The notes below the pieces were generated by a model. The model did no database searches. It saw nothing but the letters and a program-made list of their open reading frames with translations, and was not told the origin of the DNA. A DNA stretch of 32,057 bases from a virus. The translations under genes were made by a program, and so were the position numbers. The first letter of the stretch is position 1; every line of letters begins with the position of its first letter. Shown here in pieces: positions 1,544 to 9,830 of this stretch. Location of the stretch: positions 1 through 32,057 of IMG/VR virus record IMGVR_UViG_3300042691_019791, one strand, 5' to 3'.

Positions 1544-1574
1544 TTTGCTTGTATTGCTTACTTTGTTATCTTTG
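1544..1574 (+). promoter_or_regulatory. Bacteroidota promoter of the basic-protein operon
   Basis: TTTG (1544-1547), exactly 19 nt, then TATCTTTG (1567-1574): a full match to the Bacteroidota housekeeping consensus. The expected transcription start falls a few nt after the box, leaving a very short leader before the ATG at 1593. The promoter lies inside the longer open frame that begins at 1527, which fixes the real start of the first gene. Confidence 0.75.
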
Positions 1575-1592
1575 TTATCAAATATTGATTTT

Positions 1593-2096
1593 ATGAAAAA
1601 AATTAAAATTGGTTCATATAGTAGAACCGTAACTAAAGATGGAAACAGAAAAAAAGTTGAAGTAAAACGTAAAGCTGTTGGAGGAACAATCATTAAAACG
1701 AAGACTAAGTCTTTTCAACCTGCTGTAGGAGAATCTGCCTCTAGGTATACTGTTGATAAAGTGAAAAAATTTATTCCGTCTAATGGTGGAGAGGTTACTG
1801 TTAAGAGAAAAGTTGCTTCAAATATTGGCTCTGGAGATGCACAATACTTTAAAAATACAAAAAGAGCTAGATCTGGCCGCTTAAAATTAGATACAAATTA
1901 TTATGAGGATTTTAAAAATGGTCAGGGAAGCCTGTTGATTTCTAAATACAACAGAAAAGGCAAACTTGTTCAACAAGCTGATCTTTATGAAGATCCTAGT
2001 CTTGGTATAAAGGAAACTTATTTGAATAGACGTGGTGTTAAGAAAATTATTTCTGACGGAAAAGTCACGAAAATTCGTAGAGCAAATAAAAAATAA
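1593..2096 (+). CDS. Basic protein, first gene of the lysine-rich operon
   Basis: 167 residues from ATG 1593 (MKKIKIGSYSRTVTKDGNRK). The frame could open at 1527, but that 22-residue hydrophobic extension, which imitates a signal peptide, is the T-rich promoter read as codons, so I reject it. The protein is very rich in Lys/Arg and predicted beta-rich, with repeated short hairpin-like units such as NRKGKLVQQADLYEDP and a basic tail TKIRRANKK. The G-K-[IL]-V...Y.DP segment recurs in the gene at 2514-2999. There is no enzyme motif. A nucleic-acid-binding or virion role is inferred from charge and context only. Confidence 0.7.
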   Translation: MKKIKIGSYSRTVTKDGNRKKVEVKRKAVGGTIIKTKTKSFQPAVGESASRYTVDKVKKFIPSNGGEVTVKRKVASNIGSGDAQYFKNTKRARSGRLKLDTNYYEDFKNGQGSLLISKYNRKGKLVQQADLYEDPSLGIKETYLNRRGVKKIISDGKVTKIRRANKK

Positions 2097-2101
2097 AAGT
2101 C

Positions 2102-2380
2102 ATGTTTGGTAGAAAAAAAAATACAGTAGTTAGTGATAATTCGAAAACAAAATATATCACCAAGTCAACTGGAGCAACAAAAATAAAAAAGGTTGAATTT
2201 ACGCCAGAAGGTAAAAAAACAACTGTTCAAAAACAAAGTGGACCAAACTCTTTTATTAAATCTAGTAAGATGAAAGTAAGGGTAAATGAAAAAGGTTTTA
2301 AGCCCTACACACAGATTAAAGAAAAACATGTTTCTTTAGGGAATCTTCCATTAATTAATTCCTTTAAAAAACTTAAATAA
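2102..2380 (+). CDS. Small basic protein
   Basis: 92 residues, starting MFGRKKNTVVSDNSKTKY. It contains GATKIKKVEFTPEGKKTTV, a charged beta-hairpin-like unit similar to ITKIKNISKDGKIVKSV in the gene at 2514-2999. Lys is spread along the whole length and acidic residues are few. It starts 5 nt after the previous stop, and its stop overlaps the next start in a TAATG, so translation is probably coupled. No known family is recognised. Confidence 0.65.
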   Translation: MFGRKKNTVVSDNSKTKYITKSTGATKIKKVEFTPEGKKTTVQKQSGPNSFIKSSKMKVRVNEKGFKPYTQIKEKHVSLGNLPLINSFKKLK

Positions 2381-2517
2381 TGGCTAAGGTTCAGACAGAT
2401 AATAAATTCAAAAAGAAGGCTAAAGTATCAAGACCTGGCATTCATTCGAAAACAAAAACATCAAGAACAAAAACATCTAAGAATTATAAAAAACAGTATA
2501 AAGGCCAAGGTAAATGA
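2380..2517 (+). CDS. 45-aa highly basic protein
   Basis: The ATG overlaps the previous stop (TAATG) and the TGA overlaps the next start (AAATGA). Of 45 residues, 14 are Lys and 2 Arg against a single Asp. The sequence includes KVSRPGIHSKTKTSRTKTSK and ends KNYKKQYKGQGK. I associate a RPG[IV]H[AS]KTKTS...NYKK.Y.GQG pattern with a recurrent tiny protein of Bacteroidota phages, from memory only. With no hydrophobic core it is probably disordered unless bound to nucleic acid. Confidence 0.65.
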   Translation: MAKVQTDNKFKKKAKVSRPGIHSKTKTSRTKTSKNYKKQYKGQGK

Positions 2518-2999
2518 AAAAGCGAAAAAAAGTAATTGATTATTCTGTTTCAGACAATGGAGGTATTACTAAAATAAAGAATATTTCTAAAGATGGAAAG
2601 ATTGTTAAATCTGTTTCTAAATATTATGATCCTAACACAAAAGGAAGAAATGTTGAAAGATCTAGAGTAATTGGAGATAAGGCTATATCCTTTGGAAGGA
2701 GGAATACAAAATCAGACAGTGGGGAGAGGTTGAAAGCTACTACTTTATCAGTATTATCACCAGAAAAATCTAAAATGATTGCCATTAAAAATGAAGGTGG
2801 TAAAAAATCTTTATTTATAACAAAAAGAAATACTGGTAATAAAACATCTTTGACCATGGAGAAGTCTAGAGGTTCAAAGCCTTTGTATTCAGTAAAAGGA
2901 GTTTCTGATAAAACTTCTGTAAAAAATACTAGCAATAGAAAATACGCCAAAGAACTTTATAGAGCAAATAAAGGTTTAAAGAAATCTTCGAAATCATGA
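2514..2999 (+). CDS. Basic beta-hairpin-repeat protein
   Basis: 161 residues, starting MKKRKKVIDYSVSDNGG. The N-terminal unit GITKIKNISKDGKIVKSVSK followed by YYDP resembles a segment in the 167-aa gene at 1593 (NRKGKLVQQADLYEDP), suggesting duplication within the operon. The rest alternates beta-type strands and Lys/Ser/Thr-rich turns, ending KGLKKSSKS. Its start overlaps the preceding stop and its own stop overlaps the next ATG (ATGA). No catalytic motif is present and function is unknown. Confidence 0.65.
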   Translation: MKKRKKVIDYSVSDNGGITKIKNISKDGKIVKSVSKYYDPNTKGRNVERSRVIGDKAISFGRRNTKSDSGERLKATTLSVLSPEKSKMIAIKNEGGKKSLFITKRNTGNKTSLTMEKSRGSKPLYSVKGVSDKTSVKNTSNRKYAKELYRANKGLKKSSKS

Positions 3000-3307
3000 T
3001 CAAAAGAGATTCTCGTTTAGCTCGTGCTGGAGTATCTGGTTTTAATAAGCCAAAGAGAACTCCAGGCCACCCAACAAAGAGTCATATTGTTGTGGCAAAG
3101 GAGGGTGAACAAGTTAAAACCATTCGCTTTGGTCAACAGGGTGTAAAGACAAATCAAACAGCAGGACAACGTGAGGCTTTTAAGTCTCGTCATGCTAAGA
3201 ATATATCTAAAGGCAAAATGAGTGCCGCCTATTGGGCCGATAAAGTTAAATGGAGTCCAAGCAAGACATCTCAACCTAAAAATAAAAAGTGGGTTAAAGG
3301 TAGCTAA
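2996..3307 (+). CDS. Conserved virus-associated basic protein (DUF6321-like)
   Basis: 103 residues, with segments SRLARAGVSGFNKPKRTPGH, KTIRFGQQGV, FKSRHAKNISKGKMSAAYWA and DKVKWSP. I recognise this pattern (RTP.HP.KSH.V..K.G..VKT.RFGQQGV ... FK.RH.KNI.KGKMSAAYWA..VKW) as a family seen in phages and algal viruses, which I believe Pfam calls DUF6321; this needs an HMM check. It is more conserved-looking than its neighbours, with well-placed Trp and Tyr, so it is probably folded. Its function is undescribed to my knowledge. Confidence 0.75.
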   Translation: MIKRDSRLARAGVSGFNKPKRTPGHPTKSHIVVAKEGEQVKTIRFGQQGVKTNQTAGQREAFKSRHAKNISKGKMSAAYWADKVKWSPSKTSQPKNKKWVKGS

Positions 3308-3322
3308 ACACATAAAATTTAT

Positions 3323-3330
3323 TATTTTTG
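3323..3330 (+). promoter_or_regulatory. Possible -7 box TATTTTTG
   Basis: TATTTTTG matches TAnnTTTG and sits 16 nt before the ATG at 3347, in the only sizeable gap (about 40 nt) inside the basic-protein operon. There is no TTTG at the -33 position, so it is a secondary promoter at best. Confidence 0.35.
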
Positions 3331-3346
3331 AAAAAAATAAAATGTC

Positions 3347-3967
3347 ATGAGAGGTTTACAAATAAAAAGAGGAAAAAAAGGTACTTCAGCAGCAGAGCAA
3401 GCAGGTCCTTCAGCCGCAGAGCAAGTAGGTTCTGGTGGTGTTAATTACGCAACAAAAAAAAGCACTGCTTTAAAAGGCAAAAAAAGACAGACATCTTACA
3501 CCAGATTAAATCCAGCGGATGCTTCTAAAATGGCTAAATCATTAGGAGAAGGGAATAAAAAATTCTCTTACTCATATACTGATAAAATGGGTAACGTAAA
3601 TAAATCAGTTAAATTTAACGATAAGAAAAATTCACTTGATATAAATTTTCCAAAAGTAAATTTCCCTGGTATAACTCGAACTCCTAAAGATACGCCACCT
3701 AAAGACACTCCTCCTAAAAATGATGGCGGTAGCACTTTTAAAGATAAACTGAAGAAAAAAGCTAGCAGCATAAAAGAAAATATTCAGTCTAGCAAACAAA
3801 AAAGAAAAGATTTAAAAGAGCAAAATAAGAATTGCAAGAGTAAAAAAGGTATTATCCAAAAATGTGAGGATTTTGGAAAGGATCTATTTAGTACAAAAAG
3901 AAAAAATAAATCTTTAAAACGTAAATCCGCTAGAAGAGATAGACAAGTAAGGAGAATGAAACGCTAA
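3347..3967 (+). CDS. Basic protein with short internal repeats
   Basis: 206 residues, starting MRGLQIKRGKKG. Residues 14-28 are a tandem repeat (SAAEQAG P SAAEQVG). Near residue 115 there is KDTPPKDTPP, a second tandem repeat making a Pro-rich hinge. Between them is a beta-type unit (FSYSYTDKMGNVNKSVKFND) like the hairpins in neighbouring genes. The C-terminal third is an extremely basic helix-rich tail (KRKNKSLKRKSARRDRQ) with two Cys. A modular folded-linker-polycation design fits a DNA- or RNA-binding tail, but that is inference. Confidence 0.65.
   Translation: MRGLQIKRGKKGTSAAEQAGPSAAEQVGSGGVNYATKKSTALKGKKRQTSYTRLNPADASKMAKSLGEGNKKFSYSYTDKMGNVNKSVKFNDKKNSLDINFPKVNFPGITRTPKDTPPKDTPPKNDGGSTFKDKLKKKASSIKENIQSSKQKRKDLKEQNKNCKSKKGIIQKCEDFGKDLFSTKRKNKSLKRKSARRDRQVRRMKR
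3386..3430 (+). repeat. Imperfect tandem repeat encoding SAAEQ[AV]G
   Basis: Two 21-nt units (3386-3406 and 3410-3430) differ at a few bases and are joined by a Pro codon. They lie inside the gene at 3347-3967 and keep its frame, so this is a length-variable linker rather than a regulatory repeat. Confidence 0.6.
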
Positions 3968-3982
3968 ATAAATTATACTAAT

Positions 3983-4369
3983 ATGAAACCAAAAAATCCA
4001 ATTGACGGAATTAAAGCTAGAATTGCTCAAAGAAAAGATTATAAATCTAAAATGGAGCAATATAAAAAAGATTTGGCAGAAGCAAATAGACAGGCTAACC
4101 CTCGTGATTTAGGTGGAACACCTCCTAGAATGCCTTTATCTCCTAGACAACAAAAACAAGTTGCAAAAGGTAAGGATATAAATAAGCCTGCTAGTAAAAA
4201 GAAAGAATCATCTCTTAATTACACTGTTAACTTTAACAATACTAACAATAAAAGAGGTAAAAAAGCTAATTATGATATGGGAGCTTCCGAATTAGCAAGA
4301 AAAAGAAATAAAAAGGGAGGTATGTCTACTAGCTGTAAAAAAGTTGTAAGATTTGGCCGTAATAAATAA
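3983..4369 (+). CDS. Basic protein of unknown function
   Basis: 128 residues, starting MKPKNPIDGIKARIAQRK. It has an N-terminal basic helix (YKSKMEQYKKDLAEANRQAN), a Pro-rich linker (GGTPPRMPLSPRQQKQ), a beta-type unit SLNYTVNFNNTNNKRGKK and a basic tail with one Cys (KKGGMSTSCKKVVRFG). The phrase VVRFG and the linker-hairpin layout echo other genes of the island. Its stop overlaps the next start (TAATG). No family is recognised. Confidence 0.65.
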   Translation: MKPKNPIDGIKARIAQRKDYKSKMEQYKKDLAEANRQANPRDLGGTPPRMPLSPRQQKQVAKGKDINKPASKKKESSLNYTVNFNNTNNKRGKKANYDMGASELARKRNKKGGMSTSCKKVVRFGRNK

Positions 4370-4557
4370 TGAAGTTAAATAAAAAAACCACAAGCAAAGT
4401 AAATCAAGCTGGTAATTATACTAAGCCAGGTATGAGAAAGTCTTTGTTTAATAAGATTAAAGCTGGAACCAAAGGTGGTGATCCTGGAGAGTGGAGTGCT
4501 AGAAAAGCACAAATGCTTGCTCGTGAATATAAAGCTAAAGGTGGAGGATATAAGTAA
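4369..4557 (+). CDS. Conserved 62-aa virus-associated basic protein
   Basis: The core GNYTKPGMRKSLFNKIKAGT is followed by KGGDPGEWSARKAQMLAREY and KAKGGGYK. I recognise GNYTKP.MR..LF..IK.G.KGG.PG.WSARKAQ.LA..YK..GGGY as a motif of unknown function found in diverse phages and in large algal viruses, often near DUF5872-type sequences (from memory). The next gene is DUF5872-like, so the pairing is kept here. It starts and ends in TAATG overlaps. It is predicted helical, with a conserved Trp. Confidence 0.75.
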   Translation: MKLNKKTTSKVNQAGNYTKPGMRKSLFNKIKAGTKGGDPGEWSARKAQMLAREYKAKGGGYK

Positions 4558-4826
4558 TGGCATTAGCTAAGTCACAACAAAGTCTAAAGAATTGGACTAA
4601 GCAAGAGTGGATGACATCTGGAACACACTCAAATAAAAGCAAAGGTTTATCGAAAGAAGTTAAGTCTGAGGGTAAGAAAAGGTATCTACCTAAAGCTGCT
4701 TGGGATTCTTTAACTTCTGGAGAGAAGAAGGCTACTAATAAAGCTAAGTCAGAAGGAAATAAAAGAGGCAAACAATTTATAAGTCAGCCTTTAAAAATAA
4801 AGAATAAGGTAAAGGTTTTCAGATAA
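4557..4826 (+). CDS. DUF5872-like basic protein
   Basis: 89 residues: 20 Lys and 3 Arg against 6 acidic residues. Recognisable segments are SLKNWTKQEWMTSGTHSNKS, GKKRYLPKAAWDSLTSGEKK and KRGKQFISQPLKI. They fit the layout I know as DUF5872 (NWT.Q.W.T.SG ... RYLP..A...L...E..AT..AK..G...GKQF..QP..I). The domain is found in viruses and its function is not established. This is the last gene of the basic operon; its stop lies 3 nt from the convergent stop of the minus-strand gene, with no obvious terminator. Confidence 0.75.
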   Translation: MALAKSQQSLKNWTKQEWMTSGTHSNKSKGLSKEVKSEGKKRYLPKAAWDSLTSGEKKATNKAKSEGNKRGKQFISQPLKIKNKVKVFR

Positions 4827-5030: not shown

Positions 5031-5490
5031 TTTCCTTAAACCTTAATAATTGATCTTGATCTAAGACATACGAGTCTCCAGTTCCTAAGTTACGGATATT
5101 TTCTTGCTTTTTTATATCTTCAGAGCGAATATACCCAGGAAAAAAAATTGTGTAGTCATTTTGTACAATTGCAAGTACATACATATCAACAGGTATTGCA
5201 TTTAATTTGACCATGAGCCTTCCATTTTTTAGTCGAGTGCTTTTAATGTCAATGGTTAAATTTTTATAAACACAGTCAGGCTGTCCTGGAGTATCTGCTA
5301 GGCTAAATGTAATGTTATGCCATTTGCAGAATGCGTACTCAGATAGACATCCATCAAAGTCGATTTCATACCCTGATTTTTCAGAGGCAAACTTTTGGTC
5401 TACCACATTATTATTCCTGTTAAAGTAGGACCTTGTTGAGGCAATAGTTCTAAGAAAGTGTACCTCCGACTCCGTTAAATTTATTGTCAT
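5014..5490 (-). CDS. PD-(D/E)XK superfamily nuclease candidate
   Basis: 158 residues. The restriction-endonuclease-like core is visible: Glu51 in GCLSEYAFCKW, then Pro71-Asp72, and Asp81-Ile82-Lys83 in LTIDIKSTR, an exact PD-x(8)-DxK arrangement. A beta strand and helix follow (VDMYVLAIVQND), with FFPGYIRSEDI after it, as in phage resolvase or endonuclease relatives. Substrate is unknown: Holliday junctions, host DNA or phage replication intermediates are all possible. It has its own promoter with a long (about 170-nt) leader, setting it apart from the main replication operon. Confidence 0.6.
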   Translation of the reverse strand: MTINLTESEVHFLRTIASTRSYFNRNNNVVDQKFASEKSGYEIDFDGCLSEYAFCKWHNITFSLADTPGQPDCVYKNLTIDIKSTRLKNGRLMVKLNAIPVDMYVLAIVQNDYTIFFPGYIRSEDIKKQENIRNLGTGDSYVLDQDQLLRFKENGKKK

Positions 5491-5662
5491 TATTTGGTGT
5501 GTTATGAAAAAACACGTTCTTATGGCATAGATCCATTACTCCACTATTTGCATTTACTAATTCCTCCGTTGAGGCTTCAATGGCTTCGTTATCCAGACGA
5601 CTATTTATAGCTTGTAATAGACTCTATTGCCAAAAGAACTATTGTGTGTTTTATATGCGTTA
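5491..5662 (-). other. Long leader between promoter and nuclease gene
   Basis: About 170 nt of transcribed leader. On the minus strand one frame is open without a stop for about 58 codons (LLQAINSRLDNEAIEASTEE ... GVMDLCHKNVF) and runs into the nuclease start. Its only ATG lies two-fifths of the way in. The composition looks coding, so it may be a remnant gene, a non-AUG leader peptide or chance. No terminator or riboswitch fold is recognised. Confidence 0.3.
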
Positions 5663-5693
5663 CAAATATAATCTTTTTTAAAAGAAAATCAAG
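5663..5693 (-). promoter_or_regulatory. Bacteroidota promoter of the nuclease gene
   Basis: The minus strand reads CTTG (5693-5690), 19 nt, TATATTTG (5670-5663): a perfect -7 box and a 3-of-4 -33 box at correct spacing. It sits between the replication operon and the nuclease pair. Confidence 0.6.
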
Positions 5694-5716
5694 TGAAAAT
5701 TATTAACAAAAGATTT

Positions 5717-5881
5717 TTAATTTTCTTCTGGATTTATTTGTAAACATTTTGGAATACCTCCATTCATAAGATATACTCCGCAGGTTTTACATCTGACTAA
5801 ATACTCATTGTTTCCTTTTATTACCAGCCAATTACTCTTGCAGAATTTGCTTTTTCTTAGGTATTTGGATTCTGGTTTCAT
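5717..5881 (-). CDS. 54-aa Cys-containing (zinc-ribbon-like) protein
   Basis: The frame opens at the ATG complementary to 5879-5881 and ends in TAA at 5717. It contains KFCKSNWLV and RCKTCGVYLMNGGIPKC, giving Cys single, CxxC and a final Cys, as in a degenerate treble-clef or zinc-ribbon fold. It lies 9 nt downstream of the gene at 5891-6130 and is the last gene of the leftward replication operon. Function is unknown; a small DNA- or protein-binding zinc domain is the natural guess. Confidence 0.55.
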   Translation of the reverse strand: MKPESKYLRKSKFCKSNWLVIKGNNEYLVRCKTCGVYLMNGGIPKCLQINPEEN

Positions 5882-8986: not shown

Positions 8987-9712
8987 TTATTGGTTTATTA
9001 GTTTTAATGTTCCTGGGACTGCTGAATCATATTGTTGTTTAGTTACTTCAACAATATCTCCGAATGCAGTTCTTACTTTTAGCCTAACTTCTTGTATCTT
9101 GTTTTCATCTCTAAACCAGATGTGCATTTTCAGCCTCCAATTTTTCACAGGCTTATTGTTCTTATCACACCAATTACCATCGCTGTAGTAGTTGTATGCT
9201 TTTATAGCCACATCCTCACGATACCCCTTTTCTCTGAAGAATGCCTTTACCTCATCTAAACTTGGAGGAGAAAAACGTGCTTTCCCTATATTAGTATTTG
9301 TATTATTATTATTCTTTGTATTAGTATTTAGTATTTGTATAGGCATACTTTCACCGAGGTCGGTAAAAGCCGATGTCGGTGTTTCCCGAATGTCGGTTTT
9401 CTCCGATGTCGGTACTTCATATACAATGTGATTCCAACCTTTAAACAATTTTGTTTCGTTGTCAATTACCTTCACAGACAAAATGTAATTCTTCTCCTGT
9501 AGCTGTTTAAATACACGATCTATAGTCCCCTTAGACTCTCCTGTCTTTTCTGGGAGATTTTTTTTGTAAAGAACCCAATCACATGGCAAACTCAATAGAT
9601 ATACCAGAAGACCCTTTTCTTCAATTGTCAATGTGCAGTCTTGGAGTAATTTATTACTCAACATAGTAAAGTCCTTTTCAGACTTTGCCTTTATAATTTG
9701 TCCTGTATTCAT
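8987..9712 (-). CDS. Winged-helix replication protein (replisome organiser/DnaD-like)
   Basis: 241 residues. The N-terminal 90 residues form a winged helix typical of phage replication initiators of Bacteroidota: MNTGQIIKAKSEKDFTML, TIEEKGLLVYLLSLPCDWVL, then GTIDRVFKQLQEKNYI. A linker of Asn/Thr repeats (NTNTKNNNNTNTN, about 128-140) leads to a C-terminal segment PSLDEVKAFFREKGY with AYNYYSDGNW and VKNWRLKMHIWF, similar to DnaD/DnaT-type loader domains. It probably binds the origin or loads the adjacent helicase. The poly-Asn linker is encoded by an AT-rich triplet run and may vary in length. Confidence 0.75.
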   Translation of the reverse strand: MNTGQIIKAKSEKDFTMLSNKLLQDCTLTIEEKGLLVYLLSLPCDWVLYKKNLPEKTGESKGTIDRVFKQLQEKNYILSVKVIDNETKLFKGWNHIVYEVPTSEKTDIRETPTSAFTDLGESMPIQILNTNTKNNNNTNTNIGKARFSPPSLDEVKAFFREKGYREDVAIKAYNYYSDGNWCDKNNKPVKNWRLKMHIWFRDENKIQEVRLKVRTAFGDIVEVTKQQYDSAVPGTLKLINQ

Positions 9713-9719
9713 ATGTGCG

Positions 9720-9743
9720 AAAAAAATGCCCCGAAGAATGGGG
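9720..9743 (-). terminator. Short hairpin plus U-run before the HTH gene
   Basis: The minus strand reads CCCC-ATTCTTC-GGGG then CA and seven T. The stem is only 4 GC pairs, but the U-run is good. It lies just 7 nt before the ATG at 9712, so it would either end the transcript of the gene at 9831-10076 or act as an attenuator in front of the replication genes. Confidence 0.45.
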
Positions 9744-9745
9744 AG

Positions 9746-9804
9746 GTCGCAGTCTCACACCATTCAACAGGGCTAGTGTTTTTATGTTTTTAGTTTGCTG
9801 CGAC
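9746..9804 (-). other. Structured intergenic RNA element
   Basis: GTCGCAG (9746-9752) pairs perfectly with CTGCGAC (9798-9804) around a 45-nt AU-rich loop, in the 118-nt gap between two minus-strand genes and directly ahead of the terminator-like hairpin. It may be part of a leader that controls the hairpin at 9720-9743. No known riboswitch is recognised. Confidence 0.35.
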
Positions 9805-9830
9805 TCAAACTTAAAACGAAAACTAATACT

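Follow-up and report, generated by a model that had tools for sequence, protein, structure and literature searches.

Introduction

The DNA packed by tailed phages is commonly regarded as almost bare and neutralised by small cations, T4 and some giant phages being the exceptions. The internal proteins IPI, IPII and IPIII of T4 are basic, present in about 300 copies each, individually non-essential and largely ejected; they bind DNA at low salt, and in relatives of T4 other basic proteins replace them (PMC9026906). Eukaryotic DNA viruses have protamine-like virion proteins, and Ascovirus P64 is a large protein (64 kDa) that condenses DNA (PMC6163548). Here we describe a cassette of nine consecutive genes for small polycationic proteins, the open reading frames ORF1 to ORF9, in a virus record of 32,057 bases (IMG/VR IMGVR_UViG_3300042691_019791), the whole of which is called the window. 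The cassette is a polycation island, a site at which gene families change and the charge stays, and its most conserved families recur, mostly beside head genes, in unrelated phages.

In regard to the described systems, the cassette resembles the T4 internal proteins in that each phage has several small basic proteins, which are little conserved between relatives and apparently swapped for other basic proteins. It differs from them in holding nine such genes in one operon and in having a core (ORF5, ORF8 and ORF9) spread over unrelated phages; moreover, packaging and DNA binding were shown for T4, while the cassette is known from sequence. None of the nine ORFs matched a T4 internal protein family in PHROG or Pfam, and a shared N-terminal capsid targeting peptide of the T4 type was not seen, the nine N-termini being different when compared by eye. 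With neither homology nor a common targeting peptide, the cassette is not a member of the T4 internal proteins. P64 and similar proteins are likewise cationic and, in the role proposed below, associated with viral DNA, but no sequence relation to them was seen in searches that included no test aimed specifically at one. The closest described families are phrog_7595, phrog_17747 and phrog_14910, of unknown function, to which ORF5, ORF8 and ORF9 belong by hidden Markov model (HMM) score, and DUF6321 (PF19846), a small basic domain that stands alone or fused to a virion protein and occupies the same cassette in relatives but lies outside the window.

Organization of the cassette

The cassette occupies positions 1593-4826 of the plus strand, is flanked by minus-strand genes and ends 3 bases short of a convergent gene. 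The initial annotation had described nine consecutive plus-strand polycation genes, mostly joined by TAATG or ATGA overlaps behind a near-perfect promoter, and this description holds. All nine ORFs exist, with products of 45-206 amino acids (aa), isoelectric points of 10.4-11.2 and net charges of +17 to +33 per 100 aa, and overlaps were found at five of the eight junctions (ORF2/3, 3/4, 4/5, 7/8 and 8/9). The promoter (1544-1574, plus strand) is of the Bacteroidota type and near-consensus, consisting of TTTG at 1544-1547, a spacer of 19 base pairs (bp) and TATCTTTG at 1567-1574, and relatives keep TATCTTTG a few tens of bp upstream of the first cassette ATG. The octamer class TANNTTTG alone occurs at chance frequency within the window. 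Since the promoter falls within the longer reading from 1527, the start of ORF1 was corrected to 1593. The promoter was rejected as a clue to timing, because its class, TAnnTTTG, is also found upstream of genes for a protein resembling single-stranded DNA-binding protein (SSB) and of replication-side genes.

The summed net charge of one set of nine proteins is +206. Among the 44 called genes of the window, only the nine cassette genes and one other reach +12 per 100 aa, and if gene order were random, nine of these ten would lie side by side with a probability of about 5e-7. Runs of at least three such genes were absent from a small control set of five phages or phage parts (T7, P-SSP7, elemoE and the examined stretches of phi13:2 and phi17:2), and inspection of the structural genes, as annotated, of phi13:2, phi17:2 and elemoE, the nearest cultured phages, also found no polycation runs.

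The window virus is an aquatic phage infecting bacteria. Its terminase and portal are closest to those of Flavobacterium elemo phages, Cellulophaga phages (e.g., phi13:2) and a spring-water phage, at 21-26% identity, which together with the Bacteroidota-type promoters points to a host among the Bacteroidota. The genome probably extends beyond the record, because contigs with a 75-80% identical primase-helicase extend to 61-68 kb. DNA near-identical to the window was not found in the phage collection.

Turnover at a fixed site

Relatives carry plus-strand polycations, headed or anchored by ORF3, in the stretch from the w1326-side genes to w4830/w5014. ORF3 (2380-2517, 45 aa, net +15) is kept in about 30 related contigs, with 87-100% identity in contigs L086, L087 and L152 and 62-69% in more distant relatives; the phage collection gave no match to it, at 45 aa too short for the viral-contig scan. 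Among the 30 contigs with ORF3 in the cassette, a count that includes near-duplicates, DUF6321 is present in 22, ORF5 in six, neither in two and both in none. The Pfam match to DUF6321 in the cassette of L102 has an E-value of 9.5e-25, while none of the nine window ORFs reached the gathering score of this family. Homology of DUF6321 to ORF9, suggested by weak Foldseek matches, and to ORF5 was considered and rejected, with hhalign probabilities of 0.7% and 3.6%, respectively. Further replacements comprise an RGLWDNI family of 51-58 aa, RKNLLGRD proteins of 134-148 aa and basic proteins of 112-335 aa.

Exchange has also reached into the cassette itself. ORF5-9 of L086 are identical to those of the window, but ORF1-3 of the same contig differ by about 0.5 synonymous differences per site; in L085, the ORF9 protein is identical while ORF8 has diverged. 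Both contrasts indicate recombination inside the cassette. As to whether relatives keep the block together, which the initial annotation had proposed to check, relatives retain the cassette, though not its complete set of genes. Judging by the sequences compared, ORF5, ORF8 and ORF9 form a widely conserved core, ORF3 acts as a local anchor, and the remaining genes appear as interchangeable additions that are swapped for other polycations in relatives. The additions comprise ORF1 (1593-2096, 167 aa, net +29) and ORF2 (2102-2380, 92 aa, +18), both of no known family, together with ORF4 (2514-2999, 161 aa, +30), ORF6 (3347-3967, 206 aa, +39) and the fast-evolving ORF7 (3983-4369, 128 aa, +25). 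ORF1 is 66% identical in L086, where ORF6 is identical and has its only relative. ORF4 is 96% identical in L086 and 40-41% in L112 and L114, at the same site, and ORF7 shows 62% identity in L087 and 43% in L152.

Two other kinds of gene were seen in cassettes of relatives. One acidic protein of 111-127 aa lies amid the polycations at a near-constant place (L102, 18573-18956, minus strand; also in the cassettes of L116 and L138). The cassette of L138 additionally holds an insert of 222 aa (reverse-complement 5062-5730) that by eye is similar to a GIY-YIG homing endonuclease.

Recurrence in unrelated phages

ORF8 (4369-4557, 62 aa, net +13) is the most conserved cassette member, with 27 of its 62 positions invariant in an alignment of 50 sequences. 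Its match to the phrog_17747 HMM is full-length (residues 4-62, profile 5-63 of 63, E 4.3e-36), as are those of ORF5 (2996-3307, 103 aa, +20) to phrog_7595 (profile 4-96 of 96, E 5.7e-33) and of ORF9 (4557-4826, 89 aa, +17) to phrog_14910 (profile 1-79 of 80, E 6.6e-26). AlphaFold2 (AF2) models of ORF5 and of ORF9, the latter predicted to be mostly helical, have a predicted local distance difference test score (pLDDT) of 82 and 88, respectively, and W13, W18 and Y43 are invariant in ORF9. Of the HMM and structure-prediction searches proposed at the outset, the former placed three of the proteins in PHROG families, to which no function has been assigned. The Pfam scan of the nine ORFs gave no similarity to HU, H-NS or ribosomal families.

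At least 599 stretches in IMG/VR match ORF8, and the terminases of its carriers are unrelated or less than 30% identical. ORF9 lies near or adjoins ORF8 in most island contigs, and tblastn with ORF5 found matches in 127 phage records (E≤0.01). All three genes occur together in the Puniceispirillum phage HMO-2011, and the pair of ORF8 and ORF9 is present in pelagiphages, roseophages and methylophages. Cultured carriers include HMO-2011 with gp59, gp63 and gp69, CRP-4 with gp31, P12053L with gp37 and Lederberg EXVC029P with gp51 and gp52. Identity to the window in contig L002 is 29% for terminase and 22% for portal, yet 88% and 73% for the adjoining ORF8 and ORF9. Since the synonymous sites of ORF9 in L002 are saturated, a recent transfer is unlikely. 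Around ORF8 in 68 contigs, the neighbours at positions -1, +1 and +2 have median net charges of +16, +21 and +16 per 100 aa, falling to about 0 further out, and polycation runs reach up to nine genes. An ORF8-like segment was also seen inside a 130 aa protein with a net charge of +32 per 100 aa (L153, reverse-complement 1937-2329), in a contig that also carries ORF9-like and ORF5-like matches.

Association with head genes

The initial annotation had noted that the block is separate from the virion module. This is true in the window genome but not in L002, L004, L005 and L013, where the same families stand inside the head operon. The order in L002 is terminase, portal, then ORF8, a 48 aa gene, ORF9 and ORF5, with no gap. 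The order in L004, L005 and L013 is portal, 402-417 aa, capsid protein, 337-338 aa, the island and a gene of 196-234 aa, which in L004 puts the island after the capsid-protein region and ahead of the next structural gene; the assignments made for L004 genes include portal, major head and virion structural protein. Likewise, the island of L060 lies directly upstream of a terminase and a head-tail adaptor, all three homologues of HMO-2011 are near the terminase on the virion strand, and in P12053L and CRP-4 the ORF5 homologue closes a gene run holding large late genes. Among 96 large genes flanking islands, the commonest assignments were terminase, major head, portal, head-tail adaptor, virion structural and head closure proteins.

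Furthermore, the ORF5 domain is found fused to prohead proteases of PF14550, at the C-terminus in ICP1 and at the N-terminus in Aeromonas phage 2L372D (hhalign probabilities of 97.2% to ICP1 gp125 and 98.5% to 2L372D gp102). ORF5 itself corresponds to the accessory domain only, and the Peptidase_S78_2 protease domain is not in it. The fold search with ORF5 also matched an XkdF protein and a phage protein annotated as ChaB, and weakly a 95 aa Tunisvirus protein (E 0.03). DUF6321 forms the C-terminal domain of S-SCSM1_29, labelled a virion protein in its record, of Bellamy gp123 and of gp137 of the cyanophage S-CREM2. The last of these was found by mass spectrometry in purified virions, with four peptides (PMC10665884 Table 3). 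In the T7-like phage S-TIP37, DUF6321 is flanked by the scaffold and capsid genes and adjoins a 50-mer of the GLYANIHAKR family that by eye resembles the RGLWDNI proteins of the relatives' cassettes.

Charge and selection

Selection on charge is not provable from composition alone, because dinucleotide-preserving shuffles of each gene, the block being A-rich, are about equally cationic (z -0.3 to 1.7). Three other lines of evidence point to selection on the protein. The excess of A is largest at codon position 1 (0.47 vs 0.34; position 2, 0.41 vs 0.38; position 3, 0.41 vs 0.33), and the charge is retained by homologues in phages of 43-52% guanine-cytosine (GC) content. Third, the ratio of non-synonymous to synonymous substitution rates (dN/dS), taken where synonymous sites are not saturated, is low: 0.26 in ORF1 and 0.06 in ORF2 (both against L086), 0.10-0.40 in ORF4, 0.04-0.13 in ORF5, 0.32-0.52 in ORF7, 0.03-0.14 in ORF8 and 0.09-0.15 in ORF9, with ORF3 at or near ≤0.03 in the two closest unsaturated pairs. 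A ratio near 1, named at the outset as a sign of junk frames, was not found; the range is 0.03-0.5, and the ORFs compared, all but ORF6, which is identical in its only relative, are under purifying selection.

Proposed role and alternative explanations

The initial annotation had left four possible roles side by side, namely coating or condensing the genome, packaging in the head, substitution for host nucleoid proteins, and binding to RNA or ribosomes. The comparison favours a role in the head or as packaged proteins, in view of the islands next to terminase, portal and capsid genes, the fusions of the ORF5 domain with two prohead proteases, and the presence on a virion protein of DUF6321, the domain found instead of ORF5 in most close relatives. 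We lean towards the cassette products being head-packaged DNA-binding proteins, similar to the T4 internal proteins in function and unrelated to them in sequence. They would most likely be carried in the head with the DNA, because three families adjoin head-building genes in many unrelated phages. According to this model, the cassette would be co-transcribed, giving small cationic proteins, partly clearly folded, made for the phage head. The proteins would attach to DNA without sequence specificity, go into the procapsid or travel with the genome as it is packaged, and neutralise and order the DNA in the head; they could also be injected with it. We infer late expression, virion presence, DNA binding and ejection of the cassette products. 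As a matter of arithmetic only, 300 copies of the set would bring about 62,000 positive charges to a 60 kb genome with its roughly 120,000 phosphates. The confidently predicted folds of ORF5 and ORF9, together with the conserved tryptophan and tyrosine residues, suggest a role beyond charge neutralisation.

Several observations weigh against packaging in the head. In the window, the cassette lies among minus-strand genes, at least 5 kb from the virion genes, and its host-type promoter does not separate early from late expression. Some genes flanking islands are metabolic or replicative, e.g., ribonucleotide reductase and primase-helicase. The conservation of ORF8 far exceeds that of terminase or portal, which fits a universal target such as DNA, but the target could equally be a host component. 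DUF6321 itself is not in the window, and in S-CREM2 gp137, a protein of 490 aa, the four peptides cover 4.1%, the authors warning that some detected proteins may be carry-over (PMC10665884). Finally, the PDB holds no credible solved-structure relative of ORF5, ORF8, ORF9 or DUF6321 (neither a sequence nor a fold relative for ORF5 and ORF9, no sequence relative for ORF8), and therefore gives no structural proof of nucleic-acid binding.

Alternatively, the proteins could act in the infected cell, as nucleic-acid binders of early or middle expression, coating or remodelling the DNA of host or phage, or binding to RNA or ribosomes. The cassette's own host-type promoter, of the class found at SSB-like and replication-side genes, would suit such a role, as would the metabolic or replication genes adjoining some islands and the extreme conservation of ORF8 across hosts, expected of a conserved cellular target. 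We regard this as unlikely, given the preference of islands for the vicinity of terminase, portal and capsid genes, the ORF5-protease fusions, the DUF6321 domain on a virion-detected protein and the lack of HU, H-NS or ribosomal similarity in Pfam.

It is also conceivable, at a still lower probability, that the proteins are packaged mainly as cargo, that is, as injected effectors or counter-defence proteins whose turnover is driven by host defences. The changing content of the fixed site and the recombination breakpoints inside the cassette agree with this, and T4 offers a precedent, its internal proteins being largely ejected and IPI countering a host restriction system (PMC9026906). However, the conservation of ORF5, ORF8 and ORF9 across unrelated hosts is not that of effectors in an arms race, the N-termini share no targeting peptide visible by eye, and the cationic bias common to all nine proteins would not be needed by specific effectors.

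That these are junk frames or a side effect of A-rich sequence, as the cationic shuffles might suggest, is highly improbable, and is ruled out for ORF2, ORF3, ORF5, ORF8 and ORF9, in view of the low dN/dS, the conservation of the ORF3, ORF5, ORF8 and ORF9 proteins despite saturated or high synonymous change, the charge kept in GC-richer phages, the bias at codon position 1 and the AF2 scores of ORF5 and ORF9.

Other observations in the window

Outside the cassette, the leader of the minus-strand replication gene 8987-9712, at 9713-9830, shows strong conservation in about 20 relatives, and its folding is far better than that of shuffles (z -4.0). Its stem GAAUGG/CCAUUC is replaced by GAAUAG/CUGUUC in relatives, and a U run comes after the stem, ahead of the start codon. 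Rfam gave no match to this leader, which is a candidate attenuator or regulatory RNA. Between minus-strand genes at 660-780, GGGATTCGAACCC occurs near 672-686 and is the reverse complement of the T-arm motif of transfer RNA (tRNA). ARAGORN reported no tRNA, and the stretch is possibly a degraded or unusual minus-strand tRNA.

Significance

What is new here is that the island is recognised as such, along with the turnover of its content and the association with head genes. In the literature on small basic virion proteins covered by our search, with subscription papers largely outside it and an earlier description therefore possible, the three phrog families are not described and DUF6321 is not mentioned. 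More tentatively, unrelated tailed phages and possibly giant viruses may share an exchangeable toolkit of folded and conserved polycations, a phage counterpart of virion chromatin, in which proteins of the ORF5, ORF8, ORF9, DUF6321 and RGLWDNI/GLYANIHAKR types would form a protein component of the packaged genome.

The cassette is a clear case of gene replacement that keeps charge and not sequence. If such islands are packaged, phrog_7595, phrog_17747, phrog_14910 and DUF6321 would gain a testable role, and protein-assisted packing or delivery of DNA would be widespread in aquatic phages.

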